NCBI GenBank assembly: GCA_019115845.1
Contig: DXCU01000059.1
Coordinates: forward strand, 1 to 64,000
Reading direction: 5' to 3'
Length of the DNA: 64,000 bases
DNA from: Candidatus Rubneribacter avistercoris
GTDB taxonomy: Bacteria > Actinomycetota > Coriobacteriia > Coriobacteriales > Eggerthellaceae
Of this stretch, positions 4,863 to 48,212 are shown in pieces. Below the pieces are notes generated by a model, which saw only the letters and a program-made list of their open reading frames with translations, did no database searches and was not told the DNA's origin. Made by a program: the position numbers and the translations under genes. The first letter of the stretch is position 1, and each line of letters begins with the position of its first letter.

Positions 4863-4891
4863 GCCCAGGCGCCGAGTGCGGGCGCTTGCGG

Positions 4892-4907
4892 CGTTTCACG
4901 TGAAACA
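4892..4907. promoter_or_regulatory. parS site 2 (one mismatch)
   Basis: CGTTTCACGTGAAACA differs from parS only at the first base. The 14-bp core GTTTCACGTGAAAC is intact. It lies 44 bases upstream of the ABC ATPase start codon. Confidence 0.85.
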
Positions 4908-4950
4908 TCAAAGACACCGAATTCGTTTGAAGATGCGAAAGGGACGAACC

Positions 4951-12581: not shown

Positions 12582-12654
12582 CCTCGGCTGGACCCCGGCT
12601 TCGCCCGGCTCTTCCCAACCGCCTTCTCATCCCTTCTTTGTGCCCAGGTTCTCT

Positions 12655-12909
12655 CTGTTGAACCATCGTTGGCATGGGCCTGCCGCCCGCAAGTTGGTCA
12701 CAAACCGCGCCCTGTGGCACTCCGGACGGCCGATCCGGCGCACCGGCGAGCCGCGCGATTCCGGCGACCTGGGGATTCTCCGGGCGCGAGGGGCGCGGAG
12801 GGCGGGAAGACGGCCCCGCGCGTGCCACAGGGCGCGGTTTGTGACCAACTTGCGGGAGACCCCTCGCCGAACCGCCTCCGGCAGGTTCGTGCCAACGCTG
12901 GTTTAGCAG
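12655..12909. repeat. Nested inverted-repeat element (locus 1)
   Basis: A perfect 35-bp inverted repeat (12686-12720 and 12822-12856) encloses 101 bp. Outside it, a second pair of imperfect arms (12655-12674 and 12890-12909) carries the 20-bp motif TGYCAAYSNTGGTTTAACAG seen again at 48.4-48.8 kb. No coding region is supported; the element fills the gap after dnaB. Confidence 0.85.
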
Positions 12910-13208
12910 GAGCCCAGGTTTCCCCAGTCGCCTTTTGCGTTCCTTTACCTGGCTTTATCCGGTGCCCTTTTGCCTCCCGCACCCCCCTCTTGCACCCCTG
13001 CGCCTTTGAACCGAAAACAGCCTGATCAAGTGCCATAGAATCCCCTATCCCCCGTCGCAAAAGCGGCGAAGGGGGACGTAGGGGGCGGCTTTATATGCTC
13101 TCTCCAAAGTACCATAGGGACCTCACGGACTCAGACGCCGCTGCAAAGGCTTTGCTGCAAGGGCTTGTGCGGACGGCGAGGCCACGGTATTGAGGAGAGA
13201 AGGCGAGT
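12910..13208. other. Upstream region of the giant surface-protein gene
   Basis: A GC-rich then more mixed non-coding stretch. A short imperfect hairpin (CCCCCGTCGC, AAAA, GCGGCGAAGGGGG, about 13049-13076) lies in the probable leader. I could not match it to a known riboswitch. No promoter boxes were assigned. Confidence 0.35.
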
Positions 13209-16200
13209 ATGGACAGAACGACGGAGACTTTGGAGAAAGCGACGAGGGCAAGAAGGAAGGCGGGTTCCACCGCCGCCCGCATCTTGCTCTCGTTGGCGTT
13301 GGCGATGGGGATGGTCCCCGCGCAGGCGTTTGCGAACCCTGCAGATGGCGCGCCTTCGGATGGCGCGTCGGACGCTTTGGTTGAAGGGGCGTCTTTGGGC
13401 GACGTGCTGGCGTCGGGTTCGCTCCCCGTTCCCGTTGAAGCGGATTTGTCCGCTGCGGGTTTGGACCCGCAGCGCGAGGACGCCTCCGCTCCGAATGGCC
13501 ACGCTGCGGCCGAATTCGCCGGCGGCGCGCTTGTCTCCGAAGCCGACTTGGAGAAGCTGGTGCCCGGGGCCGACGAGGCGTTGGGATCCCCCGAAGTCTC
13601 CGGAGACGCGGGCGCGGTCGAATCGAATCCGGCTGAGGAGGCGGCTTTGGAAGACGGACTCGCGCCCGAAGCTTCAAACAACCTTGCCGACGGCGAGCAA
13701 CCCGCTGCCGGCGCCGATGCGGCCAACGACGCGGAGGCTTCCGTGCAGGAAGTCCCGTCCGCTTCCGAAACCGCCCCCGCCGACGGCCTTCCGGCCGCCG
13801 ACACCGCCGCCGATTCTTCCAATACCGCTGACGCCGCCGGCGCCCCCGCCGACCCTGCCTCGGCTGACGCTCCCGGCGCCCCCGCCGACCCCGCCGATCC
13901 CCTCTCCTCCTTCCTTGATCTCGTCGGCCCCGAGGAGGCTCAGGCAACCGAGCTCTTCACTCCTCTTGTGTCCGCCACCGCCGAAACCGCCGAGACCGAG
14001 CGCGCCCTCATGTCGGCCGCGCTTGCCGATCCTTCGTCCTACCAAGGCGCCTGGCTGTATGACGCCGCTTCGGGCGAGAAGGTGCTCGGCGCTGACGGCA
14101 AGCCCGTGCGCGTGGTTGCCGCCGACTCCCGCGCCGAAGGCGAGGTGCGCTATGTGGCCGCCGGCTCATCCGAGGTTCGCCTGCTGGGCGCGGATCGGGT
14201 GATCGTGGTGGAGTACGGCAAGGTGGCCGAAATCGGAGCGGAAGACGATGGAGGCGACGAAGCGCAAGAGCCTGCCGACACCGCCGATGCCGACACCGAG
14301 GGCGGCGAGCCCGTCGACAGCCCGGCCGAGGGCGGCCCGCAGACGTTCGCCCTTGACTCCAACGCGGCCGTGGGGCAGGTGACGGGCGTCAAGTGGGAGG
14401 TTGACGGCGTCATCCAGCAAGACCCCGCCACCATCACCTTCAAGGGCGGCGACATCAACCAAGAGAGCGCCGCCATAAGCGGCAAACCCAATTTCAGCTT
14501 CCTGGCCGCCTACGTGGTGCTCAACGGCATCCGTCACGAGATTGACTACCTGGGCACCGCCCAGATCGGCTCCGGGCAGAAAACCGTGTACGCGCTCAAA
14601 GACGGCACCGGGTCCACGGACTCAACCACCATCGTAACCTACGCGAACGCAGGCGACCAGTTCGTGTTCACCTACGAGAACACGCTCGATAGCCGCAAGG
14701 TGTCGCTGAACACCAAAAATTACGACAACAGGGTGGATTCCGCCCTGAGGACCGTTCAGTTCATCGACGTGCCCTCGGAGGTCAAACCCGGCCAGTACTT
14801 CACGTTCCAGGTGTTCTTTCCCAACGACAAGGTGAACCTTCACTGGGAAGCTGCCTCGAATAAGTACTATGCGAATTTGAAAGCGGCGCCCAAAACCATC
14901 TTGAAAACCACGATAGAGGGCGGCGTGCTGCGCACCTACGGAGCGACCGCTGCGGAGAACATCCCGTCAGGGGCGGTGGTCACGCTCAATCCTTGGCTTT
15001 CATACGCGGCCGAAGACCTCAGCTCCATAGACTCCTACGTGCACCATACGATCACCATGACCGGCGTGAACGAGCAAAGTCCCATGGTGCTCAGCAACGG
15101 CTACCAAGATAAATGGGGATTCTTGTTCGACACTGACAAGCCGCTCAAGGGGGTGTTCGAGGCGAAGAACAGCTCCGGGAACAGCCTGGTCGGAAGCGCC
15201 AACAACAATTCGGTGTGGCGGACCGCCACCACGGTCAACGGAGGGTTAGCTGGCGCACTGGGCAAAGAAGGGGTCCGATCGATCAGCGGTTCCGCCACAT
15301 CTTCCATCGACTCAAGCAACAAGACGGAGTTCACCCTCCAGGTGCGTGCAAGCGGCTTTTGCCAGACCACATCCTCAAGCTGGCATTATGTTATGGGCAG
15401 CATAAAGGTGAACGGGGAAAACGTCTCGTACATCAACAGCGACCGGCTGAACAACGGAAGCACCGCGTCTGCGACCACGACTTTCCGCTCGGGCGACATG
15501 ACCGGCTTGAAAGTGACGGTGACCACGAACCGGCAACACGGCAGCGCTGGATTGGGAGCCGATAACAATTACAACAATAACAACCCCTTCACCTATTACG
15601 ACATCAAGTTCGAAAACGTCTACACCGACCTCGACATCGACATCAACATGGTCCAAGGGGGCTCGTGGTGGCAGAACAACGCCAATCCCGCCGGCGCGTT
15701 CACCGTGTCGTCCCACGAGGGCATGGACGTGCAGGTGTTCAAGGGCCAGCAAGGCCAGTACGGCCAAGAGAACCTGTGGGAGAATGTCGACAGCAGGAAC
15801 GTGTGGAGGTTGTCGGACTTCCTGAAAACCCCCACGACGGTCATCCGCTACAAACCGGCGGAAGGGTATGTGTTCTCTAACGCCGAGTACGCCACGTATG
15901 GGAAGAACCTGGGTCCGGACGGCTTGAACGTGGTCAAGATAGAGGGCATCGACGAGGGCAACGGCCAGAAGAACGGCACCCGGGGTTTCAGCACCATTCA
16001 GGGAACGACATCGCAAGGCTGGGTGATAGCCCAGATGGCCGCCAACATGGGTGCGGGCCTGAAGGGCGGCCAGGTGAACGTGCTCAACATCGACGTCGCG
16101 AAGATGGTCAAGCCCGCTGAGTACAAGGTGACGTACGAAGGGCAGTACACGGACTCCAGCGGCACGAACTGGTGGGGCTACTGGCGCTCGGGAGATCCGG

Positions 16201-19200
16201 AGGGTTACCTTCCCAAGAGTCCCGAGGACAACGACACCTACGGCATCGGGTCGATTGCAAACCCCGTCATACCGGTGAGCACCCTGCTGCCCAACCCGAC
16301 CAAGCGCCTGGTGGAGGCCGGCAAGGCTCCCGTGTACTTCCAGGGCTGGGAGGTTAAAAACGTCGTCTCCGCCGAGGCGGGCAGCGGCCTGACCTACGGC
16401 ACGCCGCCGGGCGGCAGCTCGCCGACCTACTACGTGCTGCCGGGCGGGAGCATCGATTTGTCGAGGGTCACGTTCGACAACAAGGTTTCCGACGTGATCA
16501 AGGGCAAGGTCATCCTCGATGCCCTGTACACGGAAACGGCGGGCACGGGATCGACCGTCCAGAAGAAGGTCAACGTGTACCGCCACTCCGAGGGCAAGAC
16601 GGGCTTCGGAAACGACGCGTACGCGGTGGTCGAGGAGTGGGTGACGACGGCGGTGGGAGCCACGGTTGACCTCACCTTCGTCAACCAGACGATCGCCGAG
16701 GGCGACGACACCTTCGTCATGAACATGGACAGTGGCAAGACGGGCATCGTTGCCGGTCAGAACCCCATCAAGGACGGAAACGACCCCATTGCCAACATCT
16801 ACTACGAGAAGGTGGCCGCGATTGCCTACGACAAGGGCAGCGCGTCGGGCGTGACGGGCAACGCACCCGCCGATCAGGGCAGGTGGGCCTACGATACGGT
16901 GACGCTGGATAGCGGCAACGGCCTCTCCCGCGCCGGCTACACGCTGGCGGGTTGGTCAACCACGCAAAACCTGCCCGCGGGGGACTTCAACCCCACCAAC
17001 AACCCCACGCGCGACTACGCTTTGGGGCAGACCGGCGTGCAGGTTCCCTGGGACGGCATGACGCTCTATCCGGTGTGGAAGTCCAGCGTGAAGGGCGCCA
17101 AGTTCAACTTCGGCACCAACTGGTACTACCAGGGCAACCCGAACCAGCAGGTGGACCAGCTCAACGGCGGCGCGAAGTACCGCTACGACATCACGAACGC
17201 GAGCGCGACGACGCTGGCCGCAGCGCTTGGCATGACGGATCTGCCGCGTCAAGCGAACGAAGACGAGCTGCCCGGCTCCTTCACCAACACCAATATCGAC
17301 GAGCTGATGAACAAGCATCTCTTCGACGTGAAGCTGGGTTCCGGTGCAAACGATGCCGGCACGAACGAGAACAATTACTTCGAAGGCTGGTACACCGGCG
17401 TCGGCGGCACGGGCACGCGGGTCACCAAGGACACGGACCTCAGCACGCTTACTCCCAACGGCAACGGCTACATCCAGCTGTACGCCAAATGGGGCAGCCG
17501 CACCTTTGCTGCGGGCGCGGTGTCCGGTGTGGAGGACAAGTCGCTGAGCACGGGGTACCAGGGCGGCAGCGCCGACGGCAACCTTTCCGGGGACGCTCTG
17601 GCCAACAGCGGCCAGTGGAACATCAGCATCCCCATCACGCGCTTTGGCGCGGGCAGCACCGACGCTGCCAGCGCCTCGGCGGTCAGCTGGCCGCGCATCA
17701 CGTCGTATAGCCTGAATCCCAGCAACGACAACTTCGCCCTGTACGCGCCGAACGGCGACGAATTGCTGAAGGACGGCAAGGCGCTTGCGTGGCAGCACAC
17801 CTCCGGCGCGAACGGCGAGATGAAGTTCAGCGCCGTGCTCAAAGACGGCCTGACGCCGGGCGAGTACAGCACTGCGATCCAAGTCAAGATTGACCTCGGT
17901 CCCACCGCAGGCGGATGGCACCGCTTCCAGACGGTGAGCATTCCCTTGAAGGCCACGGTCACGGGCGACCTTGACATCAAAACCCCGACCATCGACTACG
18001 AGACGGAGGAGATCACGTTCACCGGTGCCGACGTTGCGGGCGCCACGGTCACGGGCGACAACTTCAACCACACGGTGAAAAACGACGGCGACAAGGCGTC
18101 GCTTGCGAGCGCGCTTGACGCGTGGCTCGCCGGCGACCAGTCCACGGAGCTGACCCTGGAGAAAACCCAGGAGTTCTACCGCCCGCACACCAGCACGATC
18201 TCCGTTCCCCATCGCCCGCAGGCGCCGGAGGCGACGGTGGCCTCGACGGTGGGTTCGGACCAGGCCACGCTTTCCATCAACAGCCCCCGCGACGGTTTCA
18301 GCTACCAGTACATCAAGTGCGACAGCAACGGAACCGAGGCCGCCGGCGCCCAATGGACCGACATGGGCACCGCCAGCGCGGGCGGCGCCGTGCAGGCGAG
18401 CGTCGACGCGGGCGCGTACTACAAGGTGCGCATCAAGGGCAGCAACGCCAACAGCAACTTCGCCTCTGAGCCGTCGGCCGTCTACAAGGCCACGCACGAG
18501 GTGATGGTCACCCTCAGTCATGCGAACGACCACGGCAAAGACATGAGCAGCCTGGTGAAGGCCGGCATCGAGGCCGACGGCACCTTGGGCGGCTGGGACG
18601 CGTGGACCGGCGAAAAGGTCCACGAGGTTGGCTCCTACCTCCAAACCGGCTCCATTTGGAGCAAGGCCACCGCGCTCGTTCCCGGCTACAAGCTCAAGTC
18701 CATCTCGTATGCCGGCACGGAGCACACGAGCGGGAACATCCAGATCACCGCAGCCGGCCCCGTGACGTTCAACTGGGTGAAGATCAGCCAGACGGTGACG
18801 TTCGACTACAAGGGCGCCCAGGTTGAGAACCAGGGCAACAGCAGCCTGCTTGGCGAGAAGGCCGCGTTCAGCCACCCCGACGGCTGGGCGCAAGACGACG
18901 GCAGCACGGTGCGCGACGACCGTCACCCCGATCCTAAGAAAAACGGCGCCAACCTTGACGCCTTCGACTTCTACCGGGACGGCCAGGCGTTTGCGGGCTG
19001 GTGGACGAAGGACGGAACCGACACCGGCGACTGGGGCGAGCAGTACACCAAGGACACCAAGGTGTACGATCTGGTCAAGCTGGCTCCGGAAACCGATCTC
19101 ACGGTGTACGCCAAGTGGGTGGACGTCGATTACTCCATCACCGGCAGCAGGGTTGAGAACGGAGACACGGACACCTCGCTTGCGGTGGGCTACAAAGACG

Positions 19201-22200
19201 ACGGCATCTACGATATGGAGGTGAACCTGACCGGCACGCAGAGCGGCGGCGAGGGCGGCATTGCGCCCGACCTGCGGGTGCTCGGCGTCTCGGCGGAGGC
19301 TGTGGGCGCGAACAGCGACGCGTTCAAGGTGACCGTCACCAGCGGGGACAGCGGCGACTTCGACACCGCGCTGGGCCACGGCGTTGGGCTGCAGGTTGCG
19401 CCGGCGGACGGCCAGGGCGCGCTTGCTGTGGGCGAATACCAGATCAAGCTGAAAGTAAGCTACGACGGCGGCAGCCAGTACGGCCTTGACCTGGGCACCA
19501 ACGTGAAGGACGGAAGCGAGAACGCCGGCAACCCGGCCTACTACGTGACGGTGACGCTCAAGGTTGAGAAGCTGCCCGTTTCCGATCTGGACGTGAAGTT
19601 CGGCCCCATCGACTACGAGAACGAGCGCATCCAGATTGTGGGCACCCATGTTCCCGCCACGGTGGACATGGCCAAAGAGCACCTTGAGATCGCCGGCGCC
19701 GATGCGGCTACGGCCAACGTCAACTGGGACGACTGCTGGGTGGTCGAGGACGGCAAGCTGTATTTGAACCTTTCTCGGGCACTCGATAGCGATCAGGGCA
19801 ACTGGGCCGGCGACGGCAGCGCCCTAGAGCTGACGCTGAACCACAAAGTCTGCGACACCCACGAGGCGGGCACGCTGGACACTGCCGCGTTCAACGGCCG
19901 CGGCAACGCTCCGGGGCTTGTGGCCGACTCGTACTACGAGGAGGGCGGCCAGCAGCGCGTCCCGGCGTTTGGCGAGGGCGCGTCCGGCACCGTGCGCATC
20001 GACACCGCCGGCATGGACCCTGCGGAGACGGTCCTTCTGCAGCACAGCATGGTGGAGGGCGGCGTTTCCGCGTGGCACAGCCTGAACGGGGCGACGTCGT
20101 TTGCCCATGCCGCCGATGCGGACAACCCGTACGGCGTGCGCGTCAGGTGGAAGGCCGACAGCGCGGCGGACGCGCACGACGGCTGGTTTGCCAGCCGCGT
20201 CAACAACGTGTGGATCGACCAGTGGTACAAGGTGGAGTACAAGCTGCTCTACACCGACCTCGAGGGCGCGCAGCAAGACGGCAACGCCGTTGCCGGCAAG
20301 CTGAACGCCGACGGCACGGTGACCGCGCGCAGCACCTTCTACGGCGAGGTGAACGGCACCACCGCCAATGTGGCCGAGCGCGAGAAGTTCTACGTGCGGG
20401 CGGGCGCCAAGGAGACGCTGCCCGTGTTCGGCAAGGGCGACGGCACGTGGGAGACCCCTGGTTTCGACATCGTGAAGATAGAGCAGGGCGTCCTTTCCCC
20501 GGGCACCTCCGCCACGCCCGGGGTCATCGAGGACCAGAAGGACCAGGTGTACGGCGCAACCCAGTCCAACGACATAACGGGCGACACGCTGATCACCTAC
20601 ACCCTTGAGCCCAAGACGCTCACGGTGCGCTGGAACATCTCCAACGCCAGCACCCAAGACCCCTACCCCAACGACCTGCCCAGCACGCAGAAGGTGAGCT
20701 GGCTGGAAACGGTGCGCACCAGCATGCTGGCAAGCTCCGGCACCGACAAGTGGGATCCCGACAACGCCACCTGGGTGAGCAAGTACTTCGACAGCACCAC
20801 CCTTGGCGACGACGGCAAGCCCATCGATCCTGTCAGCGTCAACTGGCCGGGCTACATGCGCGACCCGTGGCAGCTGTGGGCCAACGACGCGAACGTGGAC
20901 AGCTTCCATCCCTTCCAGGTGGGCCAGACGCTGTCGCACGTGTGGAACGTCAGCCCGGCCGAGTACGGTCAGAACGCCCAGGGAACGGCGGCCACCTCGT
21001 GGCGCGACGTGGAGGGCCTGACCTTCGGCGTGCAGTACCGCACCTCCACCGGCCAGTACGGCGTGGTGTTCAACGTGCCCAACGACATCGACGGCGTGAC
21101 GCTGGTGAACGGCAACTCGGCCGACAGCCGCCTGTCCAAGGTGACCGCCGAGGGCAAGGTGGATTCGCAGGTGAAGATAGACGGCACCGACGTTTCCCTC
21201 AACGCCCCCGGCGTCCTCAAGGACGGCAACGGCGAGGCCATCGTGTTCTCGGGCTTTTTGTTCGACGAGCCGGGCAAGAGCGGCGCGCAGCCTGCGCTTG
21301 GCAACTACCATAACGAGAAGTGGCAGTTCGACACCGCCGGCGGCGGCGCGGGCCAGAAATCGATCTGGGACCATGCCAAGACCGTTGAGGAGAACGTTCA
21401 CAACGCCTACGTTGACACGTGGAACGTCAAGACCGAGAACGGAGACAAGGTGGGCCCCATGGACGGCACCGCGCGCCCGGTTCCCTACGGCCCGGACAGC
21501 GACAGCAGCTACAGCGACAGCGCGGAGCTGCCGGATTACGCCAAGTTCTCGCTGGCGGCGCGTTTCGAGGACGCTCGCCTGGCCGACGCGCCTTTGTCCG
21601 CGGCGTTCGAAGAGGGTCAGATCGGCGGCATCAGCCTGCCGCTGACGGCGCGCGATTTCTTCGACCCGGCGGACGGGGGACGCAACAGCGCGGGCGACAA
21701 ACCCTCGTTCAGCGATTTCAGCGCAACGGTTGCGAACACCTCCACCGGCATCGACTCCTCGGTGGCCAACGACTGGCTTTCCGCAGGCGCGCTGTCGGGC
21801 CAGATAACCGACGACGGCGCAAAGGTGGACCTGCCGCTTACGGTGAAGAGCGATTTGAAGCCCGGGCGCTACACGGCCGAGGTGACGGTGACCTACCGCT
21901 ACACCGATTCGTTCGGCAGGCAGCATGACGGGCTGACCAAGACCTACACGGTGACGGTGGACGTGACCTCCGACGGCCAGACGGCCGAGGAGGGCGACTA
22001 CACCGCCACGGTGCATGACTACGCCACCATGCGCGCCAACGCGGCCACCGAACTGGGCGACGCCGCCTCCCTGGCGCAGAAGATGGGCCTTTCCGTCATG
22101 GTGGAAAACGCCGACGGCACGGTGAGCGCGGTTTCCCAGGGCACGGGCAACGGCCAGTACACCTTCACGGCAACCCCCAGCTCCATCGGCCAAGACGACG

Positions 22201-25200
22201 AAAGCCCCATAGAGGTGAGCTACGTTGTGACCGTGAAGGACGGCACCGGCGCGACGCATACCCTCAACGTGCGCGCGAACGTGCACCTGTACGATACGGG
22301 CGTGGAGCAAAACGGCGTGAAGGTGTTCGCCAACAACGCCCAAACGACGCTGCCCGAAAAGGACAAGGAGGCGCTCGGCTCCAACTACACCGCTTGGGCG
22401 CTCGCCTTGGTCGGCGGCGCCGCGTACGACGTGAACAACAACTACCAGCCGCTCACGGTGACGATTGGCGCTGACGATGGCCTGAGGGAGGCCAATCCGG
22501 ATACGGTGGGCACCCAGGTGCAAACCCACGTGAAGGTGACCGGCGCCGACGTGTCGGCAAAGCCCAACGTGACCATCAACAAGGCAACGATTGCGGCGCC
22601 GAGCGCCCCCGTGCAGGATGCGAGCGCCTACGCTGTCGATGCGGTGACGTGGGAGGCGGCGACGCACGGCAACGACTTCAGCGTTGCGCAGATCGACCAA
22701 CCGGCGGGCAACGCGTGGAAGGTGGACTACGCGCCGCAGATGGAGTACGCGGTTGACGGAAACGAGGGCGCGCCGGTGTCCGGCCTGACCCAAAACGGCC
22801 TTTCGCCCAACACCTCGCATCAGGTGAAGGCGCGCTTCGCCGCCAGCAAGGTGTACGACGTGGACGCAGCCGGCTGGAGCGCCGAGGCAACCATGTGGAC
22901 GAAGCCTAGCGCCCCTGCCGAGGGCGCGGCGAACGGCCAGCCGACGTACACCTACGATTACGCCGCCGAAACCGTGACGGCTCCCCAGACGTATGCCGAA
23001 AACGGCAACGACGTGACGCTTGAACTGGATCTTTCCAACCCGACCGCAGCGGGTGGCACCATCACGGCCAGCGTGGCCGATCTGGCGGGCACGAAGGAGG
23101 GCGCGTACAAGGGCGCAACCCAGCCCGGCGTCCAAAGCGGCACCTTCACGGCAACCGCCACGGGCAAGGCGAGCACGCTGGAAAGCGACCAGGCTGTCAT
23201 CAGCACGGTTCCCCAGCGCGCGGCCAAGCCCGACCTGGTCTATGCGCCTCCCATCCTGCAGGCCGACAAGGGCACGTTCACCGGCTGGGACGCCGCGTAC
23301 GTCAAGAACGCGGCCAACCCGACCGAGGGCACGGAGTACGAGACTTTCTACCAGGTGTCCAAGGTGGACGACGCCGACGCCGGCGCGCGCACGTGGGAGC
23401 CGGTCAAGCTTGCCTACCAGGGCGGCGAGTGGACGTACCAGGTTGACCCCGGCTCCACGTACGTGTTCCAGGTGACCCACAGCGACGGCGCGTGGTTCAA
23501 GAGCGCCGAATCCGACCAGTACCGGGTTGTGGCGGGCGCCTACATTGTGGCGAACGACTTCTCCATAGCCAAGACGGCCATCGAGAAGTACTACGACGAG
23601 GCGAACGGCTCCTACACGCTGAAAGCCGACGACGCCTCGCGCAACGAGTTCGAGACGAACCTGAAGAACTGGGCGGCCGCAGGCGTCATGCCCAGCGGCT
23701 CGGGCATGACGGTGAAGGTGGACTTCGACACCGCGTTTGGCGCGGTGCCGGTTGAGGGCGCATACGAGGTGACGTTCTACCTGCAAGATACCGCGGGCCA
23801 GAAGGTTACCGGCTCGGAAAAGAAGGTGACCATGGCCGTGACCTCGTCGGGCGATCCCTCGGTGAACCCGCAGGCCAAGCTGTTCGCCTCCAACTTCGCA
23901 GTGGGCAAGGACGAGATAGGGGACTCCTGGACCGGCATGGCCGAGATGAACCAGCTGGCCTGGGACCGCTCGAACGCGCACGGGACCAAGAAGAACGGGG
24001 CCGAGGAGCTGGCGCTGGCCGACGTCGAGGTGACCATCGCCCCGGCGGGCGGCTCCGCGCAGGCCGTCACCGACCCGGCGGCCATCGAGCGCGGCTCCTA
24101 CCGGGTGACGTTCAGGTACCAGCCCCTGACCGCCGACGGCCAAAACGACGGCACGGCGGTGACGGCCACCGTCACCATGACGGTGTACGACCACATGGGC
24201 GCCTCGGACGGCTTCCTGGTGGCTTCGAACGACTTCACCGCCGGCGCGGACGAGCTGGTGTGGGACGATACACCCGGCGCGTCCAACAGCGGCTTCCTCT
24301 CCGACGCGGAGGCCGTCAAGCGCGCGAGCGCGACGCTGTACGCGGCCGACAACGCTGCCGTGGCGCTGCCCTCCGACGGGCTTGCCGTTGACCTGACGGC
24401 TCTGCGCAACGCCTTGGGCCGCACGACGGTGACGGACGGCGCGGTGTTCACCGCCAAGAACGACACCGCCGCCCAGAAGGCGAGCGCGGCGTCGGATGTG
24501 CTGGTCACCGACGACAGCGCCGTCAGCACGGACTACAGCCTGAACGGCAACGACTTCTTCATCTCGCTGGAGGAGCTGCAGGGCAAGAAGCTGCTGCCCA
24601 CCGGCAGCGGGACGCCGACCGCGCAGTACAACACGCAGCTCATCTACAACCGCGGTCAGGTGATGCCCGTCAACCTGGGCACCGGCGGCACGCTGCCGTT
24701 CAACCAGCTGTACTACACCGTGGTCACGCCTGCGGGCGAGTCGCTGACGAACAAGGACAGCGGCACGCTCAACGGCCACACCGGCTGGACAACGGGCGAT
24801 TACCAGGTGACGATAGCCGTCCAGGCCCAGGAGAGCACGAGCATCCAGGTCACGATGCACGTGTACGACAACGGCCAGACCGTGATCGACCCCGACGGCA
24901 ACGGATATTTCGCCATCTACAGCAACAACGTGCATGTGAAGGAGGGCGCCGATCTGGCGGAGCTGGTCAAGCCGGATAGCGACTACGAGAACCTGCGCAA
25001 CGCGGCCCAGGTGGCGGCCTACTTCCAGGAGTTCAACGGCACGCATCGCCCCTACGGCGGCAGCGACGTGGCAACCGGCACGGGCGACCAGCTGGCCCAA
25101 TTGGCCGCGAAGAAGGCGGGGGAGAGCGCGCCGGTGACGTTTTTGGCTCCCAAGACCGCAGCCGAAGCCGAGCGCGCGCAGAGCACCAGCACGGTGTTCG

Positions 25201-28200
25201 TGCACGGCGACGGCACCTCCGACCCCGACGGCAACGGCATTTGGGCCAATCCGTTCGCGTTCGGCCTGAATGAGCTGACAGGCGAGGGGGCCTTCGCCTC
25301 CACGCCGGATGCCCTGACCGACGCGCTCAAGGCCGAGATGTACGACCGCGCCAACGTGACCGGCGTCCTGGACCAGGTGGGCCTGCCCGCCGCGTTCGAC
25401 GGCGCCAAGGTGAGCGTTGCGGTGGTGGGCGCCCAGGCCGGCGACGCATGGGCCGCCAAGACCTACCAGGTGACTTTCAGCCTGGTGGCGGACGGCACGA
25501 AATCCGCGACGGTTTCCCTGACGGTGTACCCCTACGGCGCCAAGGGCGACCGCTACGCCGTGTTCTCCTCGCCGTTCAAGGTGAGCGAGGACGATCTGCC
25601 GAGCCTGACCGACGAGCAGCTGGCCACGTTGGGCAAGGTGACCGTGTACGACGCAGACAACCTGTCGGCTCCCATCGCCAGCGGCGCCGCCGCGCTCGAC
25701 AAGGTTGCGGTGGACAAGACCGGCCTCAAAAACGGCGATGCCTGGAAGACGGCGGGCGACGACGCATGGGTGAACTACACGGCAAACGACGACGCCGCGG
25801 CAACGGCCACCTCGCAGGTGACCATCTGGGGCGGCGGCGCGGTTGACCCCGGTGCGGGCAACCAGATCCTCGCGCAGGACTTCGTCACCTCCAAAGAGGA
25901 GCTGGCGGGGGCCGGCGACGCGGCGGCGCTCAAGCAGCTGCTGTTCGATCTGGCCAACGTGACGGGTGTGAAGGACGGCCAGGCCATCACGGTGGCTAAC
26001 ATAAGCAAGATCACCGTGAACGGCGACGACGAGGAGGCTTCGGCCGACAACATCGTTGACGGCGCCGAGGTGACGTTCCATCTGGACGGCACCGCCCTCA
26101 AGGCCACGGTGACCGCCACCGTGCACGACAAGGGCGGCTCGCACGAGGGCGCCGACGGCACGCGCTACGGCATCTTCGCCCGCGACTTCGACTTCTCCGA
26201 GGCCGATAAGAACGCCGGGCTGCTGGACGCCGCCGACAACTACGGCATGCTGCAGCGCTTCGCCGGCGTGACGGCTACCGTGACGGACGCGGACGGCCGC
26301 TACACCGTGCTCGACGGCGCGGACGCGGGCAACGTGGGCGTGAACGCGGGCGACGTGGCGGCGCTGGGCGCGCTGGCAACTGCGGGAGCAAGCCATGCGG
26401 TGACGTTCACCAACGCGAAAGACACGGAGAACCCCCAGGTTACGGCCGCTCCTCTGGGCACCTACCGCGACGGCGGCCAGACCGATCCGGGAACGGGCAC
26501 GCTCTACGCCGACGACTTCACCATGGAGCGCGGCGACCTGAGCGGCTCAACCGACCTGGCAGGCACGTTCTGGACCAACGCCAACGCTGGCGGCTTCAAG
26601 GCCGACGGCACCGCGCTGGGCGTGAACGACGTGGCCGTGCAGGTGCAGAAGGCCGACGGCACGTGGGTTACGGCTGCGGACTACGACGAGGGTTGGAGCA
26701 AGAACGCCTACGAGGTGAGGTTCTCCTACACCGAGAACGGCAAGACGGTGGAGGCCCAGGTGACCTTGACGGTGGCCGACGACTCCGCCACCCAGGGCGG
26801 CGTGAGCATCTCCGCCAACGACTTCAACGTGGCGGCGGCCGACCTGCCTGCGGCCGCCGACGGCGCCGAGGCGCTGCTCAAGTGGCTCTACGAGCAGGCG
26901 CAGGCGCGGGCCATGGTGAACGGCGCGCCCGTGAGCGCCGACGACCTGGCAAACGGCGGCGTGAGCGCCACCATCGACGGCAAGGAGCCGACCGCGGCCT
27001 GGCCTACGGGCAAGGGTAGCTACCAGGTGGCGTTCACCGTGACCAAGGACGCCGATACCGCCACGGCTGTCGTCACCATGACGGTGTTCGACAACGGCGG
27101 CGAGGTGGTTGGCCCCGACGGCACCTCCTACAAGCTGTATTCCAACGACTTCACGGTGAGCGCCGAGGAGCGCACGGACTCGTGGCCCGACGACGCCGAG
27201 CTGATCAAGCGCGGCCAGGTGGTGGCGGTGCCCGCAGGCTCCACGGCGGCCGATCCGAACGCGCCTGTCGCCGTGACCGACCGCGGCGGGCTTGCGACGG
27301 CCGAGCCGGGCGCGACCGTCCAGGTGAAGTACGGCCTGGCGAACCAGCAGTCGGGCGAGGGCTGCGCGTCTGAGGTGTACATCACGCCGGGCGGCGGCAC
27401 GGATCCGGACGATCCGGATGCCAAGGCGTCCATCTTCGCCGGCGACATCTACACGTCCGTCGACGAGCTGGCCGCGAACGCCAGCGATGTGGCCGCGCTC
27501 CTGTACCGGCTGGCCGGCGTGTTCGGCACGGACGCGGACGGCAACGCCCTGCCCGGCGCCTACGACGTCGGCAAGGTGCAGGTGACCGTGGGCGAGGGCG
27601 CCGAGGCTCCCACCGTGAGCAACGTGGTGGACGGCGTCAGGGTGACGTTCACGGTCGTGGGCACCAAGGCGCAGGCCACGGTGACGGCGCACGTGTCCGA
27701 CAACGGCGGCTCGGTGGTTGACCCCTCGACGGGCGTTTCCTACGGCATGTTCTCGGACGACTTCGACTTCAGCGCCGACGACAAGGACGCGCTAGCGCAG
27801 AAGGGCGCCGGCAACTACGCCGACCTGCGCGCCCGCGCGAACGCGGTTGCCACCAAGACCGACGAGCACGGCCTGACCTATCCGCTGGACGGGTCGAGCG
27901 ACGCCGTTGTGCGCGTCGAAGGGGCCGACGGCCTGGCCGCCGCCGCGACCGATGGGCAGACGGTGGACGTGACGTTCACCAACCTGCTGGGCACAGGTGC
28001 GAACGGTGCGACGGCCGCCAGCGTGTCCACGGGCACCTATTTCGACGGCGGCACGGAGGTCGTGGGCAAGGGCAGCCTGTTCGCCAACGACTTCGACATG
28101 GAACGCGGCGAGCTGACCGGCACGGCCGACCAGATCAAGAACCTGTTCTGGGACGCCTCCGGCGCCAAGGGCGCGGATGCGGACGGCAACGCGCTGACGG

Positions 28201-31088
28201 TTGGCGACGTGACCGTGAGCGTGCGGACGGGCACCGCCGAGGACGGATCGCCCATTTGGACCGACCTGGCAGACTACCAGGGCGGATGGAACGCGTCCAG
28301 CTACGAGGTGCGCTTCCATTACGCCGAGGGCGTTGAGGCCGTGGTGACCATGGGCGTGTGGGACGACGTGGACGAGCCTGCGGACAAGGACGTGTCGGTG
28401 AAGGCGTCCGGCTTCGCCACCACCGTGGACGACCTGGCCAAGGTGGCCTCCGCCGATGCCGCCGAGTGGGTGTTCTCCCAGGCGGGCGCCCGGGCAACGG
28501 TGGACGGCACGGTTTACGACGCCTACGACGCTGCGGTCATCAAGGTGACGAACAAGGGCAGCGACAGCCTGGCGCTGCCGAGCGAGAAGGGAGCGTACGA
28601 GCTGTCCATCACGGCCACGTCCCAGAAGGACCCCGCGGCCACTGCCACGGCTGCCGTGACCATGACGGTGTTCGACAACACCAGCGGAGGTGGCGACGAA
28701 GGCGACGTGGAGGGCGCGGACTACGCGGTGTTCTCCAACGACTTCGAGGTGAGCGCCCAGGAGATAGAGGCCGGGCTGTCGAACGAGCGCATCATCCAGC
28801 TGGCCGGAGCGACGGCTTACAAGAAGGACGATCCGCACGCCCCGCAGGGCACCGTGACGGTGGAGGACCGCACGCAGCTTGTGGCGGCCAACGCCGGCAC
28901 GACGGTGCGGGTGGTCTTCGGCGTGGCCGAGGACGGCCAGGCGCGCTGCGCGTCCAACGTGTTCATCACCGAGGGCGGCGGCACCGACCCGGTGGATCCG
29001 GACAATCCGGATTCGGGCAAGGCCCGCATTGCGGCGCACACCGTTTACACGTCCAAGGCGGAGCTTCAGGCGAACGCCGGCAAGGTGGCCGAGCTGCTCT
29101 ACAACCTGGCCGGCGTGAACGGCACGGGCGCGGACGGCGCGGCGCTGGGAACCTACGACGCGGCCAAGGTGGACGTGAAGGTGGCCGTGGACGGCGTTCT
29201 TGAGGCGCCCGCTGCGGACAACGTGGCGGACGGCTCCAAGGTCACGTTCACGGTCGTGGGCACCAAGGCGCAGGCCACGGTGACGGCGCACGTGTCCGAC
29301 AACGGCGGCGAGGTGACGGACCCGACCGATCCGGGCAAGCGCTACGGCATGTACTCCAACGACTACGTGTTCAACACGGCCGACCGCGATGGAGCCTTGT
29401 TCGAGGAAGGCGGCAACGGTTACGCGGCGCTCATCGAGCGTGCCGGGGCCTTCGCCACCGTGCGCGGCGGCAACGGCTACATGACGGTGCTGGGCGCCGA
29501 CCAGGTGCAGCCCGACGCCGACCAGGCAGAGGCCATGAAGCAGGTGCCGCTTGGCTCCGCAGGCGACGTGACGTTCGCCAACAAGCAGCACGCGGCGGCG
29601 ACGTCTGCCTCCACAGGGACGCACCTGGACATGAGCTTGCAGGCGTCCGACTTCGTGGAGAAGCGCGCCGACCTGCAGGCTGCCCAGGACGCCGAGGCGC
29701 TGCGCCAGAGGCTGTGGGCGGGCGCCCAGGCTTCGGGCACCGACTTCCAGGGGACTTCTCTGGATGTCTCCGACGTGGCTGTTCACGTGAAGCAGGACGG
29801 CGCGTGGGCGGTCGTGGACGATTCGTTTGCCGAGAGCTGGGATCTGCCCAGCTACGAGGTGAGGTTCGTCTACACCAAGGACGGCGTCGGCAGCGTCTCT
29901 GCCGAGGTGACCTTGTCGGTGTTCGACAACGCCGGCGAGGCCACCGGGCCCGACGGCACCGTTTACACGGTCTACTCCAACAACTACACGGTGAGCGCCG
30001 AGGAGCGCGACGCGGGAGCGCTCACCGACGAGGAGCTGATCCGTCGCGGCCAGGTGGTCGTGGCGCCCCAGGGTTCGACCGTGGCCGATCCGGACATCGT
30101 CGTGGAGGTGACGGATCGTTCGGCCCTTGACGCGGCGGTTCCGGGAGATGAGTTCGACGTGGTCTACGGCATTGTCGGCGGGACGGGCGCCGGCTGCACG
30201 TCGCGGGTGTACATGACTCCCGGCGGCGGCTCGGACCCGGGCACGGATGCGAGCATCTTCGCCCAGGACTTCCACACCTCGGCAGACGAGCTGGCCGCTG
30301 CCGAGGCGGCGGGAACGCTCGAACAGCTGCTGTTCGATCTGGCGCACGTCTCCGGACAGGTTGGCGGGGTTCCCATCACCGCTGACGACCTGGCGGGCGT
30401 CACCGTGGGCGGCCAGGCCGCCACGGCGGCCAACGTGACGGACGGCGCGCAGGTGACGTTCGTCTTGGCAAGCCGCTCCCGGGCGGCGGACCTGTCCGCA
30501 ACCGTGACGGCGCACGTGTCCGACCACGGCGGCTCGACGGTCGATCCGGACACGGGCCTGCGCTACGGCGTGTACTCGCGCGACTTCGAACTGGGGCCGG
30601 CCGAGCGCGAGGCTCTGGCCGATCCGACCGGCAACTACGCGGCGTTGCGCGAGCGGGCCCAGGTGACGGCCGTGAGGGCGGACGAACGCGGCATGTTCCA
30701 CGTGCTGGACGCCTCCGACCCTGCAGTCGTGGCGGTGTCGGGAGCCGAGGGGCTGCTCGACTTGGCGGAGGACGGCCAGCAGGCGGCTTTGACCTTTGCC
30801 AACGTGGCCGACGGCAATGCCGCCGGGGCCGTCAGCCTCTCGACGGGCACGCTGCGCGCTGGCGCTCCGGTCGCCCCCGAAGAGCCGGCCGCCCCGCAGA
30901 CTCCGGCCGAGGCACCTGCGGGCGCGCCGTTGGCCGTGGAGCCGGCGCCCACCCCGCTGCCGCTGCCCCGCCTGGGCGACGGCACGGCGGTTCTGGCCCT
31001 GCTGGCTGCCGCTGCCTTGGCCACCGCGCTGGCCGCCCGCGCCCGGTCCCGGGCGCGCCGCTCCGGCCACGCCCGGCCGAGGCGCTAG
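13209..31088 (+). CDS. Giant modular cell-surface protein (5,959 aa)
   Basis: A single uninterrupted reading frame of 17.9 kb. A signal peptide ends about residue 43 (VPAQAFA). An acidic Ala/Asp/Glu-rich region follows (to ~390), then long beta-rich segments that include InlB-type B-repeats near residues 1240, 1390 and 1925 (GYTLAGWST, GWYTGVGGTG, LTVYAKWV). From about 3444 to 5888 there are ~23 related modules of 90-115 residues. Each begins with a variant of xxANDFxxxxxxL and most end like VTMTVFDNGG. The last part is a five-module super-repeat (starts near 4217, 4739, 5271 and 5680). The C-terminus has LPRLGDG, a hydrophobic segment and an Arg-rich tail, like a sortase signal but not canonical LPxTG. 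Probable adhesin or wall fibre; the ligand is unknown. ATG follows GGAGAGAAGGCGAG. Confidence 0.85.
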   Translation: MDRTTETLEKATRARRKAGSTAARILLSLALAMGMVPAQAFANPADGAPSDGASDALVEGASLGDVLASGSLPVPVEADLSAAGLDPQREDASAPNGHAAAEFAGGALVSEADLEKLVPGADEALGSPEVSGDAGAVESNPAEEAALEDGLAPEASNNLADGEQPAAGADAANDAEASVQEVPSASETAPADGLPAADTAADSSNTADAAGAPADPASADAPGAPADPADPLSSFLDLVGPEEAQATELFTPLVSATAETAETERALMSAALADPSSYQGAWLYDAASGEKVLGADGKPVRVVAADSRAEGEVRYVAAGSSEVRLLGADRVIVVEYGKVAEIGAEDDGGDEAQEPADTADADTEGGEPVDSPAEGGPQTFALDSNAAVGQVTGVKWEVDGVIQQDPATITFKGGDINQESAAISGKPNFSFLAAYVVLNGIRHEIDYLGTAQIGSGQKTVYALKDGTGSTDSTTIVTYANAGDQFVFTYENTLDSRKVSLNTKNYDNRVDSALRTVQFIDVPSEVKPGQYFTFQVFFPNDKVNLHWEAASNKYYANLKAAPKTILKTTIEGGVLRTYGATAAENIPSGAVVTLNPWLSYAAEDLSSIDSYVHHTITMTGVNEQSPMVLSNGYQDKWGFLFDTDKPLKGVFEAKNSSGNSLVGSANNNSVWRTATTVNGGLAGALGKEGVRSISGSATSSIDSSNKTEFTLQVRASGFCQTTSSSWHYVMGSIKVNGENVSYINSDRLNNGSTASATTTFRSGDMTGLKVTVTTNRQHGSAGLGADNNYNNNNPFTYYDIKFENVYTDLDIDINMVQGGSWWQNNANPAGAFTVSSHEGMDVQVFKGQQGQYGQENLWENVDSRNVWRLSDFLKTPTTVIRYKPAEGYVFSNAEYATYGKNLGPDGLNVVKIEGIDEGNGQKNGTRGFSTIQGTTSQGWVIAQMAANMGAGLKGGQVNVLNIDVAKMVKPAEYKVTYEGQYTDSSGTNWWGYWRSGDPEGYLPKSPEDNDTYGIGSIANPVIPVSTLLPNPTKRLVEAGKAPVYFQGWEVKNVVSAEAGSGLTYGTPPGGSSPTYYVLPGGSIDLSRVTFDNKVSDVIKGKVILDALYTETAGTGSTVQKKVNVYRHSEGKTGFGNDAYAVVEEWVTTAVGATVDLTFVNQTIAEGDDTFVMNMDSGKTGIVAGQNPIKDGNDPIANIYYEKVAAIAYDKGSASGVTGNAPADQGRWAYDTVTLDSGNGLSRAGYTLAGWSTTQNLPAGDFNPTNNPTRDYALGQTGVQVPWDGMTLYPVWKSSVKGAKFNFGTNWYYQGNPNQQVDQLNGGAKYRYDITNASATTLAAALGMTDLPRQANEDELPGSFTNTNIDELMNKHLFDVKLGSGANDAGTNENNYFEGWYTGVGGTGTRVTKDTDLSTLTPNGNGYIQLYAKWGSRTFAAGAVSGVEDKSLSTGYQGGSADGNLSGDALANSGQWNISIPITRFGAGSTDAASASAVSWPRITSYSLNPSNDNFALYAPNGDELLKDGKALAWQHTSGANGEMKFSAVLKDGLTPGEYSTAIQVKIDLGPTAGGWHRFQTVSIPLKATVTGDLDIKTPTIDYETEEITFTGADVAGATVTGDNFNHTVKNDGDKASLASALDAWLAGDQSTELTLEKTQEFYRPHTSTISVPHRPQAPEATVASTVGSDQATLSINSPRDGFSYQYIKCDSNGTEAAGAQWTDMGTASAGGAVQASVDAGAYYKVRIKGSNANSNFASEPSAVYKATHEVMVTLSHANDHGKDMSSLVKAGIEADGTLGGWDAWTGEKVHEVGSYLQTGSIWSKATALVPGYKLKSISYAGTEHTSGNIQITAAGPVTFNWVKISQTVTFDYKGAQVENQGNSSLLGEKAAFSHPDGWAQDDGSTVRDDRHPDPKKNGANLDAFDFYRDGQAFAGWWTKDGTDTGDWGEQYTKDTKVYDLVKLAPETDLTVYAKWVDVDYSITGSRVENGDTDTSLAVGYKDDGIYDMEVNLTGTQSGGEGGIAPDLRVLGVSAEAVGANSDAFKVTVTSGDSGDFDTALGHGVGLQVAPADGQGALAVGEYQIKLKVSYDGGSQYGLDLGTNVKDGSENAGNPAYYVTVTLKVEKLPVSDLDVKFGPIDYENERIQIVGTHVPATVDMAKEHLEIAGADAATANVNWDDCWVVEDGKLYLNLSRALDSDQGNWAGDGSALELTLNHKVCDTHEAGTLDTAAFNGRGNAPGLVADSYYEEGGQQRVPAFGEGASGTVRIDTAGMDPAETVLLQHSMVEGGVSAWHSLNGATSFAHAADADNPYGVRVRWKADSAADAHDGWFASRVNNVWIDQWYKVEYKLLYTDLEGAQQDGNAVAGKLNADGTVTARSTFYGEVNGTTANVAEREKFYVRAGAKETLPVFGKGDGTWETPGFDIVKIEQGVLSPGTSATPGVIEDQKDQVYGATQSNDITGDTLITYTLEPKTLTVRWNISNASTQDPYPNDLPSTQKVSWLETVRTSMLASSGTDKWDPDNATWVSKYFDSTTLGDDGKPIDPVSVNWPGYMRDPWQLWANDANVDSFHPFQVGQTLSHVWNVSPAEYGQNAQGTAATSWRDVEGLTFGVQYRTSTGQYGVVFNVPNDIDGVTLVNGNSADSRLSKVTAEGKVDSQVKIDGTDVSLNAPGVLKDGNGEAIVFSGFLFDEPGKSGAQPALGNYHNEKWQFDTAGGGAGQKSIWDHAKTVEENVHNAYVDTWNVKTENGDKVGPMDGTARPVPYGPDSDSSYSDSAELPDYAKFSLAARFEDARLADAPLSAAFEEGQIGGISLPLTARDFFDPADGGRNSAGDKPSFSDFSATVANTSTGIDSSVANDWLSAGALSGQITDDGAKVDLPLTVKSDLKPGRYTAEVTVTYRYTDSFGRQHDGLTKTYTVTVDVTSDGQTAEEGDYTATVHDYATMRANAATELGDAASLAQKMGLSVMVENADGTVSAVSQGTGNGQYTFTATPSSIGQDDESPIEVSYVVTVKDGTGATHTLNVRANVHLYDTGVEQNGVKVFANNAQTTLPEKDKEALGSNYTAWALALVGGAAYDVNNNYQPLTVTIGADDGLREANPDTVGTQVQTHVKVTGADVSAKPNVTINKATIAAPSAPVQDASAYAVDAVTWEAATHGNDFSVAQIDQPAGNAWKVDYAPQMEYAVDGNEGAPVSGLTQNGLSPNTSHQVKARFAASKVYDVDAAGWSAEATMWTKPSAPAEGAANGQPTYTYDYAAETVTAPQTYAENGNDVTLELDLSNPTAAGGTITASVADLAGTKEGAYKGATQPGVQSGTFTATATGKASTLESDQAVISTVPQRAAKPDLVYAPPILQADKGTFTGWDAAYVKNAANPTEGTEYETFYQVSKVDDADAGARTWEPVKLAYQGGEWTYQVDPGSTYVFQVTHSDGAWFKSAESDQYRVVAGAYIVANDFSIAKTAIEKYYDEANGSYTLKADDASRNEFETNLKNWAAAGVMPSGSGMTVKVDFDTAFGAVPVEGAYEVTFYLQDTAGQKVTGSEKKVTMAVTSSGDPSVNPQAKLFASNFAVGKDEIGDSWTGMAEMNQLAWDRSNAHGTKKNGAEELALADVEVTIAPAGGSAQAVTDPAAIERGSYRVTFRYQPLTADGQNDGTAVTATVTMTVYDHMGASDGFLVASNDFTAGADELVWDDTPGASNSGFLSDAEAVKRASATLYAADNAAVALPSDGLAVDLTALRNALGRTTVTDGAVFTAKNDTAAQKASAASDVLVTDDSAVSTDYSLNGNDFFISLEELQGKKLLPTGSGTPTAQYNTQLIYNRGQVMPVNLGTGGTLPFNQLYYTVVTPAGESLTNKDSGTLNGHTGWTTGDYQVTIAVQAQESTSIQVTMHVYDNGQTVIDPDGNGYFAIYSNNVHVKEGADLAELVKPDSDYENLRNAAQVAAYFQEFNGTHRPYGGSDVATGTGDQLAQLAAKKAGESAPVTFLAPKTAAEAERAQSTSTVFVHGDGTSDPDGNGIWANPFAFGLNELTGEGAFASTPDALTDALKAEMYDRANVTGVLDQVGLPAAFDGAKVSVAVVGAQAGDAWAAKTYQVTFSLVADGTKSATVSLTVYPYGAKGDRYAVFSSPFKVSEDDLPSLTDEQLATLGKVTVYDADNLSAPIASGAAALDKVAVDKTGLKNGDAWKTAGDDAWVNYTANDDAAATATSQVTIWGGGAVDPGAGNQILAQDFVTSKEELAGAGDAAALKQLLFDLANVTGVKDGQAITVANISKITVNGDDEEASADNIVDGAEVTFHLDGTALKATVTATVHDKGGSHEGADGTRYGIFARDFDFSEADKNAGLLDAADNYGMLQRFAGVTATVTDADGRYTVLDGADAGNVGVNAGDVAALGALATAGASHAVTFTNAKDTENPQVTAAPLGTYRDGGQTDPGTGTLYADDFTMERGDLSGSTDLAGTFWTNANAGGFKADGTALGVNDVAVQVQKADGTWVTAADYDEGWSKNAYEVRFSYTENGKTVEAQVTLTVADDSATQGGVSISANDFNVAAADLPAAADGAEALLKWLYEQAQARAMVNGAPVSADDLANGGVSATIDGKEPTAAWPTGKGSYQVAFTVTKDADTATAVVTMTVFDNGGEVVGPDGTSYKLYSNDFTVSAEERTDSWPDDAELIKRGQVVAVPAGSTAADPNAPVAVTDRGGLATAEPGATVQVKYGLANQQSGEGCASEVYITPGGGTDPDDPDAKASIFAGDIYTSVDELAANASDVAALLYRLAGVFGTDADGNALPGAYDVGKVQVTVGEGAEAPTVSNVVDGVRVTFTVVGTKAQATVTAHVSDNGGSVVDPSTGVSYGMFSDDFDFSADDKDALAQKGAGNYADLRARANAVATKTDEHGLTYPLDGSSDAVVRVEGADGLAAAATDGQTVDVTFTNLLGTGANGATAASVSTGTYFDGGTEVVGKGSLFANDFDMERGELTGTADQIKNLFWDASGAKGADADGNALTVGDVTVSVRTGTAEDGSPIWTDLADYQGGWNASSYEVRFHYAEGVEAVVTMGVWDDVDEPADKDVSVKASGFATTVDDLAKVASADAAEWVFSQAGARATVDGTVYDAYDAAVIKVTNKGSDSLALPSEKGAYELSITATSQKDPAATATAAVTMTVFDNTSGGGDEGDVEGADYAVFSNDFEVSAQEIEAGLSNERIIQLAGATAYKKDDPHAPQGTVTVEDRTQLVAANAGTTVRVVFGVAEDGQARCASNVFITEGGGTDPVDPDNPDSGKARIAAHTVYTSKAELQANAGKVAELLYNLAGVNGTGADGAALGTYDAAKVDVKVAVDGVLEAPAADNVADGSKVTFTVVGTKAQATVTAHVSDNGGEVTDPTDPGKRYGMYSNDYVFNTADRDGALFEEGGNGYAALIERAGAFATVRGGNGYMTVLGADQVQPDADQAEAMKQVPLGSAGDVTFANKQHAAATSASTGTHLDMSLQASDFVEKRADLQAAQDAEALRQRLWAGAQASGTDFQGTSLDVSDVAVHVKQDGAWAVVDDSFAESWDLPSYEVRFVYTKDGVGSVSAEVTLSVFDNAGEATGPDGTVYTVYSNNYTVSAEERDAGALTDEELIRRGQVVVAPQGSTVADPDIVVEVTDRSALDAAVPGDEFDVVYGIVGGTGAGCTSRVYMTPGGGSDPGTDASIFAQDFHTSADELAAAEAAGTLEQLLFDLAHVSGQVGGVPITADDLAGVTVGGQAATAANVTDGAQVTFVLASRSRAADLSATVTAHVSDHGGSTVDPDTGLRYGVYSRDFELGPAEREALADPTGNYAALRERAQVTAVRADERGMFHVLDASDPAVVAVSGAEGLLDLAEDGQQAALTFANVADGNAAGAVSLSTGTLRAGAPVAPEEPAAPQTPAEAPAGAPLAVEPAPTPLPLPRLGDGTAVLALLAAAALATALAARARSRARRSGHARPRR
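25855..30880 (+). repeat. Five-module super-repeat inside the giant gene
   Basis: Modules A-B-C-D-E are repeated in order. Full sets start near 25861 and 27427 (1,566 bp apart), a third near 29023 lacks module D, and a fourth near 30249 stops after A-B. Module openings identify the types, for example A: IFAQDFHTSADEL, B: YGVYSRDFELGPAE, C: LFANDFDMERGEL, E: YSNDFTVSAEER. A 66-bp block is identical in two copies (27645-27710 and 29244-29309), showing recent duplication or gene conversion. Confidence 0.85.
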
Positions 31089-31141
31089 GAGGCGAAGGGG
31101 CGCCCGGCCGTTGCAAGCCGCCCCCTCCCCCCCCGCTCTTC

Positions 31142-31181
31142 GCACGGCCCCCGCATCGCGCGGGGGCCGTGCGCGTTTCTT
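31142..31181 (+). terminator. Intrinsic terminator of the giant gene
   Basis: GCACGGCCCCCGC (31142-31154) pairs with GCGGGGGCCGTGC (31160-31172), followed by GCGTTTCTT. It lies 53 bases after the stop codon. Confidence 0.8.
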
Positions 31182-31227
31182 CGTGGATTTCGTCGAAGAT
31201 TCTTCCGCAGGCGGCGTCTTGCGATCC

Positions 31228-31260
31228 TTGGCACGGCCCCATTCGCGCTACACTGCACCT
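31228..31260 (+). promoter_or_regulatory. Candidate promoter giving a leaderless mRNA
   Basis: TTGGCA (31228-31233) and TACACT (31249-31254) are 15 bp apart. The -10 ends six bases before the ATG at 31261, and no Shine-Dalgarno is present, so transcription probably starts at the start codon itself. Confidence 0.45.
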
Positions 31261-34794: not shown

Positions 34795-34895
34795 TACCGG
34801 GCGGCAACCGATCCCTTTGATTGCCGGGTGATATCGTGTATCCTTCTCGCTGGGGTTCACGTGCGTGTTTGCTTCATAAGGGGGCGAGATCGAGC

Positions 34896-36329: not shown

Positions 36330-36513
36330 GGCGCGCCCTCCGTCGGGCAAAGAGGTTGCAAGGCAAAGGTGTCCCCCCTTGTTCATCAGGCGATTCGCCT
36401 CCCCACATAAAATAGGTAGGATGAAAATCCATCCTGTCCGTGTGTTCTTTGGTACGGCGTTGGCCCGTATGGTCTCCTTGGCTGTTGTTTCCGTCATGTG
36501 AGGAGATGATCAA

Positions 36514-42623: not shown

Positions 42624-48212
<5,589 letters not shown>

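Follow-up and report, generated by a model that had tools for sequence, protein, structure and literature searches.

A predicted 5,959-residue surface protein of Candidatus Rubneribacter avistercoris and a repeat module shared with other giant proteins of Coriobacteriales

Giant surface proteins built from repeats are an already known kind of bacterial protein. Giant1-5 of Apilactobacillus kunkeei, a host-associated bacterium, are extracellular, have 3,000-8,000 amino acids and carry previously undescribed repeats (PMC12863079). Alpha-helical repeats occur in Giant1-3 and an N-terminal beta-solenoid in Giant1-4; all of these giants share an SH3b-like C-terminal domain and have no predicted transmembrane domain (PMC12863079). 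In periscope proteins, adjacent SHIRT domains are 82-100% identical, which allows length variation (PMC8201768). Large multidomain proteins usually hold neighbouring domains at less than 50% identity, and this has been proposed to limit misfolding (PMC8201768).

Here, we describe a giant protein encoded in a window of 64,000 nucleotides, the whole stretch of DNA that was analysed, from Candidatus Rubneribacter avistercoris (Eggerthellaceae). Gut Coriobacteriia have been widely studied for drug and hormone metabolism, and our literature search found no paper on giant surface proteins in Eggerthellaceae. Beyond the size of the protein, what is new here is the module that makes up much of it, which is unlisted and recurs in giant proteins of Coriobacteriales, and the insertion of the gene relative to the nearest relatives.

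The initial annotation had reported one uninterrupted 17.9-kb gene for 5,959 residues. This open frame of about 18 kb is single and intact (Table 1), and the same frame is present in the parent contig. The encoded protein has a computed mass of 620 kDa and a pI of 4.3; 793 of its residues are acidic and 390 are basic. GC content by codon position is 0.63/0.49/0.88, and the neighbouring genes are alike in this respect. The DNA has a GC content of 65% and contains long antisense ORFs, the one at 19824-26396 (2,190 aa) showing a codon-position GC that mirrors the sense pattern. Since the codon-position GC fits the sense strand and is mirrored in the antisense ORF, the frame was considered a gene, and a chance ORF of GC-rich DNA was rejected. 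The protein starts with a long segment, MDRTTETLEKATRARRKAGSTAARILLSLALAMGMVPAQAFA, that reads as a signal peptide. A sigma-70-like promoter was looked for upstream of the gene and was not found.

Table 1. Coordinates of the giant gene, of the parts of its product and of the inserted segment, as positions in the window
Feature	Position	Strand	Residues	Remarks
Segment inserted relative to the two nearest relatives	12582..31241	.		dnaB stop to TTCGCGCTACACTG box
Giant gene	13209..31088	+		5,959 codons plus stop; ORF list, codon-position GC
Predicted signal peptide	13209..13334	+	1-42	...VPAQAFA, cut, NP; read from sequence
N-terminal region without detectable relatives	14364..16805	+	~386-1199	candidate ligand-binding head
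InlB-type B-repeat, recognisable	16818..17084	+	1204-1292
Degenerate B-repeat copies (two)	near 17286-17513 and 18846-19127	+	~1360-1435 and ~1880-1973
Middle region	20163..23528	+	~2319-3440	31-37% identity with ~1,900-aa proteins of two congeners
Tandem Ig-sized modules m01-m23	23538..30854	+	3444-5882	23 modules
Higher-order repeat block 1	25551..27125	+		m07-m11, S-Q-R-M-N
Higher-order repeat block 2	27126..28718	+		m12-m16
Higher-order repeat block 3	28719..29960	+		m17-m20; m20 resembles an M/N mixture
Higher-order repeat block 4, truncated	29961..30854	+		m21-m23
LPRLGD motif, hydrophobic segment and basic tail	30963..31085	+		sorting-signal-like, Thr replaced by Leu
Intrinsic-terminator-like hairpin, strong	31141..31173	+		3' of the giant gene

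When the N-terminal region was searched against 138 genomes of the family, no match was obtained except for a short InlB-like stretch further on. InlB-type B-repeats had been annotated, and they are indeed present as one recognisable and two degenerate units; they are, however, few and weak, as the NCBIfam model TIGR02543 scores 17.8 bits, under its curated cut-off of 20.95. The order given for the protein, B-repeats and then modules, was oversimplified, since the separate middle region sits between them. The relatives of the middle region in two congeners, of 1,965 and ~1,909 aa, lack the modules, and the copy in congener G002 lies at another locus, where its neighbours are a TPP-enzyme (iorA-like) gene on one side and a paaK-like gene on the other. 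The giant thus looks like a surface-protein core that was joined to a module array in this lineage.

The module array makes up more than 40% of the giant. Its modules have 96-126 residues each, typically about 105, with borders set by hand from an opening motif like (Y/S)xxYxxNDFxVSxxEL. No off-diagonal pairs emerged when the whole protein was compared with itself by BLAST. A profile recovered all 23 modules in the frame with E values of about 1e-8 or better, every row being also part of the profile's own alignment. Pairwise identity between modules ranges from 10 to 66%; this range, together with the relatives that the same profile finds in other genera, places the array far from chance. There are two alternating subtypes, with an identity of 31% within and 21% between them, and the commoner one ends in YxVTF...ATVTxTVxDxGG. 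Comparison of the two subtype profiles with each other (E=3e-7) supports their homology. Judged by their sequences, the modules are one family with two subtypes.

In modules 6-19, similarity peaks at a spacing of five, where it is 41.7%; the other spacings give 22.6-30.9%. When the array was tested in full by permutation, the excess at lag 5 had a p of 0.0007, and the best lag among 2-10 had a p of 0.0038. The resulting five-module higher-order repeat has the module types S-Q-R-M-N. Module m20 aligns in part with the M types and in part with the N types, with a modest signal that would fit a deletion fusing an M and an N module. Adjacent modules are the least alike: their mean identity is 21.5%, as against 25.5% for all pairs (p=0.0011), and their maximum is 29.8%. 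We infer that duplication of mixed blocks lengthens the array while neighbours stay dissimilar, and we link this to misfolding avoidance.

The longest exact nucleotide repeat in the giant gene is 66 bp (at 27645 and 29244, in modules 13 and 18). Since no exact repeat is longer, collapse or expansion of the module number in a short-read assembly, a concern raised with the initial annotation, is unlikely. The dN/dS of module pairs was about 0.5-1.1, whereas that of yhaO and yhaN orthologues was 0.17-0.24; as this contrast sets paralogues against orthologues, at a GC3 near 0.9 and under strong codon bias, it can do no more than hint that the modules are weakly constrained or diversifying. Rows for dnaB and g38147 were left out of this comparison, since they contradict their own amino-acid identity and their codons were evidently misregistered.

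We searched for the identity of the module at the level of both sequence and fold. The C-terminal two thirds of the giant matched no family in Pfam and NCBIfam at E<=0.1, and no Pfam family reached its gathering score in any third of the protein. Fifty separate modules gave scattered single matches in Pfam and NCBIfam, none of them consistent; a match to Ntox10 (2.8e-4, in 1 of 50 modules) was taken as chance. AlphaFold2 predicted a confident alpha/beta fold for a single module (50 rows, pLDDT 92.2), and a module pair reached a pLDDT of 92.4 and a pTM of 0.87 with an alignment of 32 rows. The predicted order in an A-type module is strand-strand-helix-helix-strand-strand-strand-strand. When the fold of the pair was compared with the PDB, a chitinase, internalin K, the Sap S-layer protein and Rib domains came up as weak matches, the best at E=1e-3 and with low TM-scores. 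For a single module, nothing fell below E 0.19, and the query-normalised TM-score was at most 0.44 among the listed matches, which are a mixture of Ig-like, S-layer and beta-grasp proteins; a viral fold library yielded no match below E 0.2. By sequence profile, the best solved relative was 2kpn (E=0.005 for A4, 0.0009 for A6), and single modules of the related G223 array, described below, matched Big_3 at 1.5e-4 and Cadherin_5 at 3.5e-5. The C-terminal half of the module is thus linked weakly by profile to bacterial Ig-like domains (Big_3). The module may be a divergent relative of these domains into which helices are inserted, or it may form a family of its own that has their last strand pair in common. 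The annotated modules without a nameable domain were therefore borne out: profile searches in Pfam and NCBIfam provided neither a consistent match nor a family model, the confidently predicted fold has no close solved structure, and the only known domain in view is Big_3, as a possible distant relative.

A first contig scan with the last 1,959 residues of the giant found no relative. With the modules of the window as queries, the 138 genomes of the family gave weak matches in one other genus, and iterated profiles extended these to 82 modules, including proteins of 4,499 and 5,098 aa. A 50-module profile had matches in 30 out of 299 genomes of Coriobacteriales (23/108 genera), among them frames of 7,382, 6,121, 5,046, 4,945 and 4,698 aa; some of the short frames may end at contig edges. 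Across 396 phylum-wide genomes, only two weak partial matches were found besides the window's own genome, one of them within the order. The genome G223, from another family, has 15 uninterrupted modules with InlB-type repeats near the N-terminus and a TPKTSD-type C-terminal signal, and its modules match those of the window, profile to profile, at E=4.5e-12. In other giants, paired modules are separated by stretches of ~95 residues that look Ig-like on visual inspection, and a single frame can have up to 40 modules. Several of the giant frames of other genera have a signal-peptide-like start and a C-terminal hydrophobic anchor.

Taken as one claim, we lean towards the following. The module would constitute a domain family of its own, so far undescribed and separate from Big_3 and its kin, and a common building block of giant surface fibres in Coriobacteriales of the gut. 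The fibres would follow two designs, one in which a third, Ig-like domain stands between pairs of modules (up to 40 of them, in a frame of 7,382 residues) and one with uninterrupted runs (15-23 modules, in two different families). Both would have grown by duplication of multi-module blocks that keeps neighbours dissimilar.

Three further frames are worth recording. In G223 (contig C2, L149), residues 2704-3056 comprise near-identical two-module blocks, in which 2788-2876 and 2968-3056 are identical; block duplication therefore occurs also in the other family. Identical modules were seen at residues ~1800-2230 and ~2979-3405 of L036 (G155:C8), 1,179 residues apart, which points either to a large duplication within the protein that is recent or to an effect of the assembly. 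L048 (G089:C148) is a giant frame of 5,543 aa with many InlB-type repeats and a LAKTGD C-terminal signal.

On one side of the giant gene is dnaB and on the other a yhaO-like exonuclease gene; in congener G002 and Rubneribacter badeniensis, the two nearest relatives, these two genes are adjacent to each other. Among the named Eggerthellaceae loci with both genes, most have at most a few hundred bases between them, and none has the giant there. A box before the yhaO-like gene, TTCGCGCTACACTG, is common to both nearest relatives up to one base, and the approximate extent of the insertion was set on this ground.

Several other features were observed around the locus. Between dnaB and the giant gene lies an element of ~170 bp (12686-12856) with perfect inverted arms of 35 bp. 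At <=3 mismatches, the arm has 65 copies in the genome, of which 34 are forward and 31 reverse, against 0 in the control; they are commonly paired 132 bp apart and make up a dispersed MITE-like family. Genes for a luxR-type regulator and an FAD-binding TAT-signal protein (34821-38169) stand between the yhaN-like gene and g38147, which are directly consecutive in G002. In Adlercreutzia faecimuris (L083, 2-10516), dnaB is directly preceded on its upstream side by a frame of ~3,300-3,500 residues that is open on both strands.

The C-terminus of the giant runs from a proline-rich stretch through LPRLGD and a hydrophobic helix to a basic tail. The hydrophobic segment and basic tail found in LPXTG sortase substrates are present (TAVLALLAAAALATALAARARSRARRSGHARPRR), while the threonine of these substrates at motif position 4 (LPxTG or LAxTG) is absent from the giant. 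The anchor is uncertain because leucine replaces the threonine that sortase requires, despite four sortase genes in the genome and a regular LASTGD on another surface protein of the window; the giant may be membrane-held. This second large surface protein, encoded at 42624-48212, has 1,862 aa and combines an F5/8 type C domain with YDG domains, LASTGD being its sorting signal.

We interpret the giant, with a probability of about 0.6, as a secreted, envelope-anchored protein resembling fibrillar adhesins, with the module array as its cell-proximal stalk. The protein would be secreted by the general pathway and its C-terminus retained in the membrane or wall. Next to the C-terminus, the 23 acidic Ig-sized modules would form a long stalk, lifting the N-terminal ~3,400 residues (the unique region, the InlB-type repeats and the middle region) beyond the surface layer. 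The ligand, for instance mucus, a glycan or another cell, would be bound by part of this portion, the unique N-terminal region being the candidate. Tandem duplication of the five-module block would have made the stalk grow, its neighbours staying dissimilar in line with misfolding avoidance. This reading draws on the signal-peptide-like start, the C-terminal hydrophobic helix with its basic tail, the four sortases, the 23 contiguous modules with a confident predicted fold, and their profile similarity to Ig-like domains, which are frequent in surface stalks. Lag-5 similarity, dissimilar neighbours and homologous modules in giant frames of other genera also argue for it. Against it stand the lack of a known adhesive domain (none in Pfam or NCBIfam at E<=0.1), a sorting motif without threonine and an Ig-like similarity that stays below threshold. 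General secretion, C-terminal retention and an extended acidic stalk together are the best fit with the anatomy, with fibrillar adhesins (PMC8286594) and with the A. kunkeei giants (PMC12863079). The initial annotation of a secreted giant surface protein with about 23 related modules is supported, as far as sequence can tell. Its length of hundreds of nanometres is fair as an upper limit, for the whole chain fully extended; the module array by itself would come to ~100 nm, if each Ig-sized domain is taken to span ~4-4.5 nm.

A scaffold for biofilm or aggregation, whose modules bind each other or matrix polymers so that the array is active and not a spacer, is an unlikely though reasonable alternative. 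The high dN/dS of the modules relative to yhaO and yhaN would mean that their surfaces are free to change, different binding faces could be borne by the many module types, and other genera interleave the modules with a third domain of ~95 aa; however, known binding domains gave no match, and the dN/dS contrast carries the caveats given above. Less probable again is that the protein serves as an antigenic shield or decoy, in other words as a long variable coat with no specific ligand, whose fast evolution is driven by phages or by the immune system of the host. This would agree with the lineage-specific insertion, with the fast divergence of the modules and with the identical 66-bp tract, which suggests recent exchange between modules 13 and 18. 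We give little credence to a structural surface-layer component, in which modules assemble laterally into a lattice: the Foldseek matches to Sap and SbsC S-layer domains that would favour it are weak, the Pfam/NCBIfam search found no SLH-type anchor domain, and the gene is missing from the same locus in the nearest relatives. Finally, an inflated module number or a chance long ORF, to which the high GC content and the antisense ORFs might point, can practically be dismissed in view of the codon-position GC, the shortness of the exact repeats and the homologous modules in other genera.

The recurrence of this unlisted module in proteins of 4,000-7,400 residues would mean that these bacteria spend considerable coding capacity on long surface fibres, which are missed by present annotation. 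The module profile renders the whole class searchable, and the block-duplication pattern provides a natural test case for misfolding avoidance in very long repeat proteins.

Like InlB B-repeat proteins (TIGR02543), the giant has B-repeat-like units, but they score below the curated cut-off and are a small part of the protein. With Big_3/Bact_surface_Ig-like domains (PF07523, PF16403; solved as 2kpn), the modules share the C-terminal strand pair YxVTF...xVTVTV and a weak profile similarity; unlike them, they reach no Pfam cut-off and have an ANDF strand at the N-terminus as well as helices. As in periscope proteins (Sgo_0707 with SHIRT domains, Rib; PMC8201768), tandem folded domains would form a stalk. 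Adjacent repeats of periscope proteins are, however, about 80% or more identical, whereas the modules of the giant are diverse and the least alike where they adjoin, at the neighbour mean and maximum given above. Fibrillar adhesin-like proteins (PMC8286594) resemble the giant in being long and multi-domain, with tandem stalk domains toward the C-terminus, here 23 contiguous modules, and a presumed N-terminal head; the giant differs in its missing adhesive domain, its degenerate sorting motif and a stalk module that is in no searched library. With Giant1-5 of A. kunkeei (PMC12863079), it shares its size, a predicted extracellular location, a host-associated bacterium and undescribed repeats, but its repeats are Ig-sized alpha/beta modules and its C-terminus would be a hydrophobic anchor.
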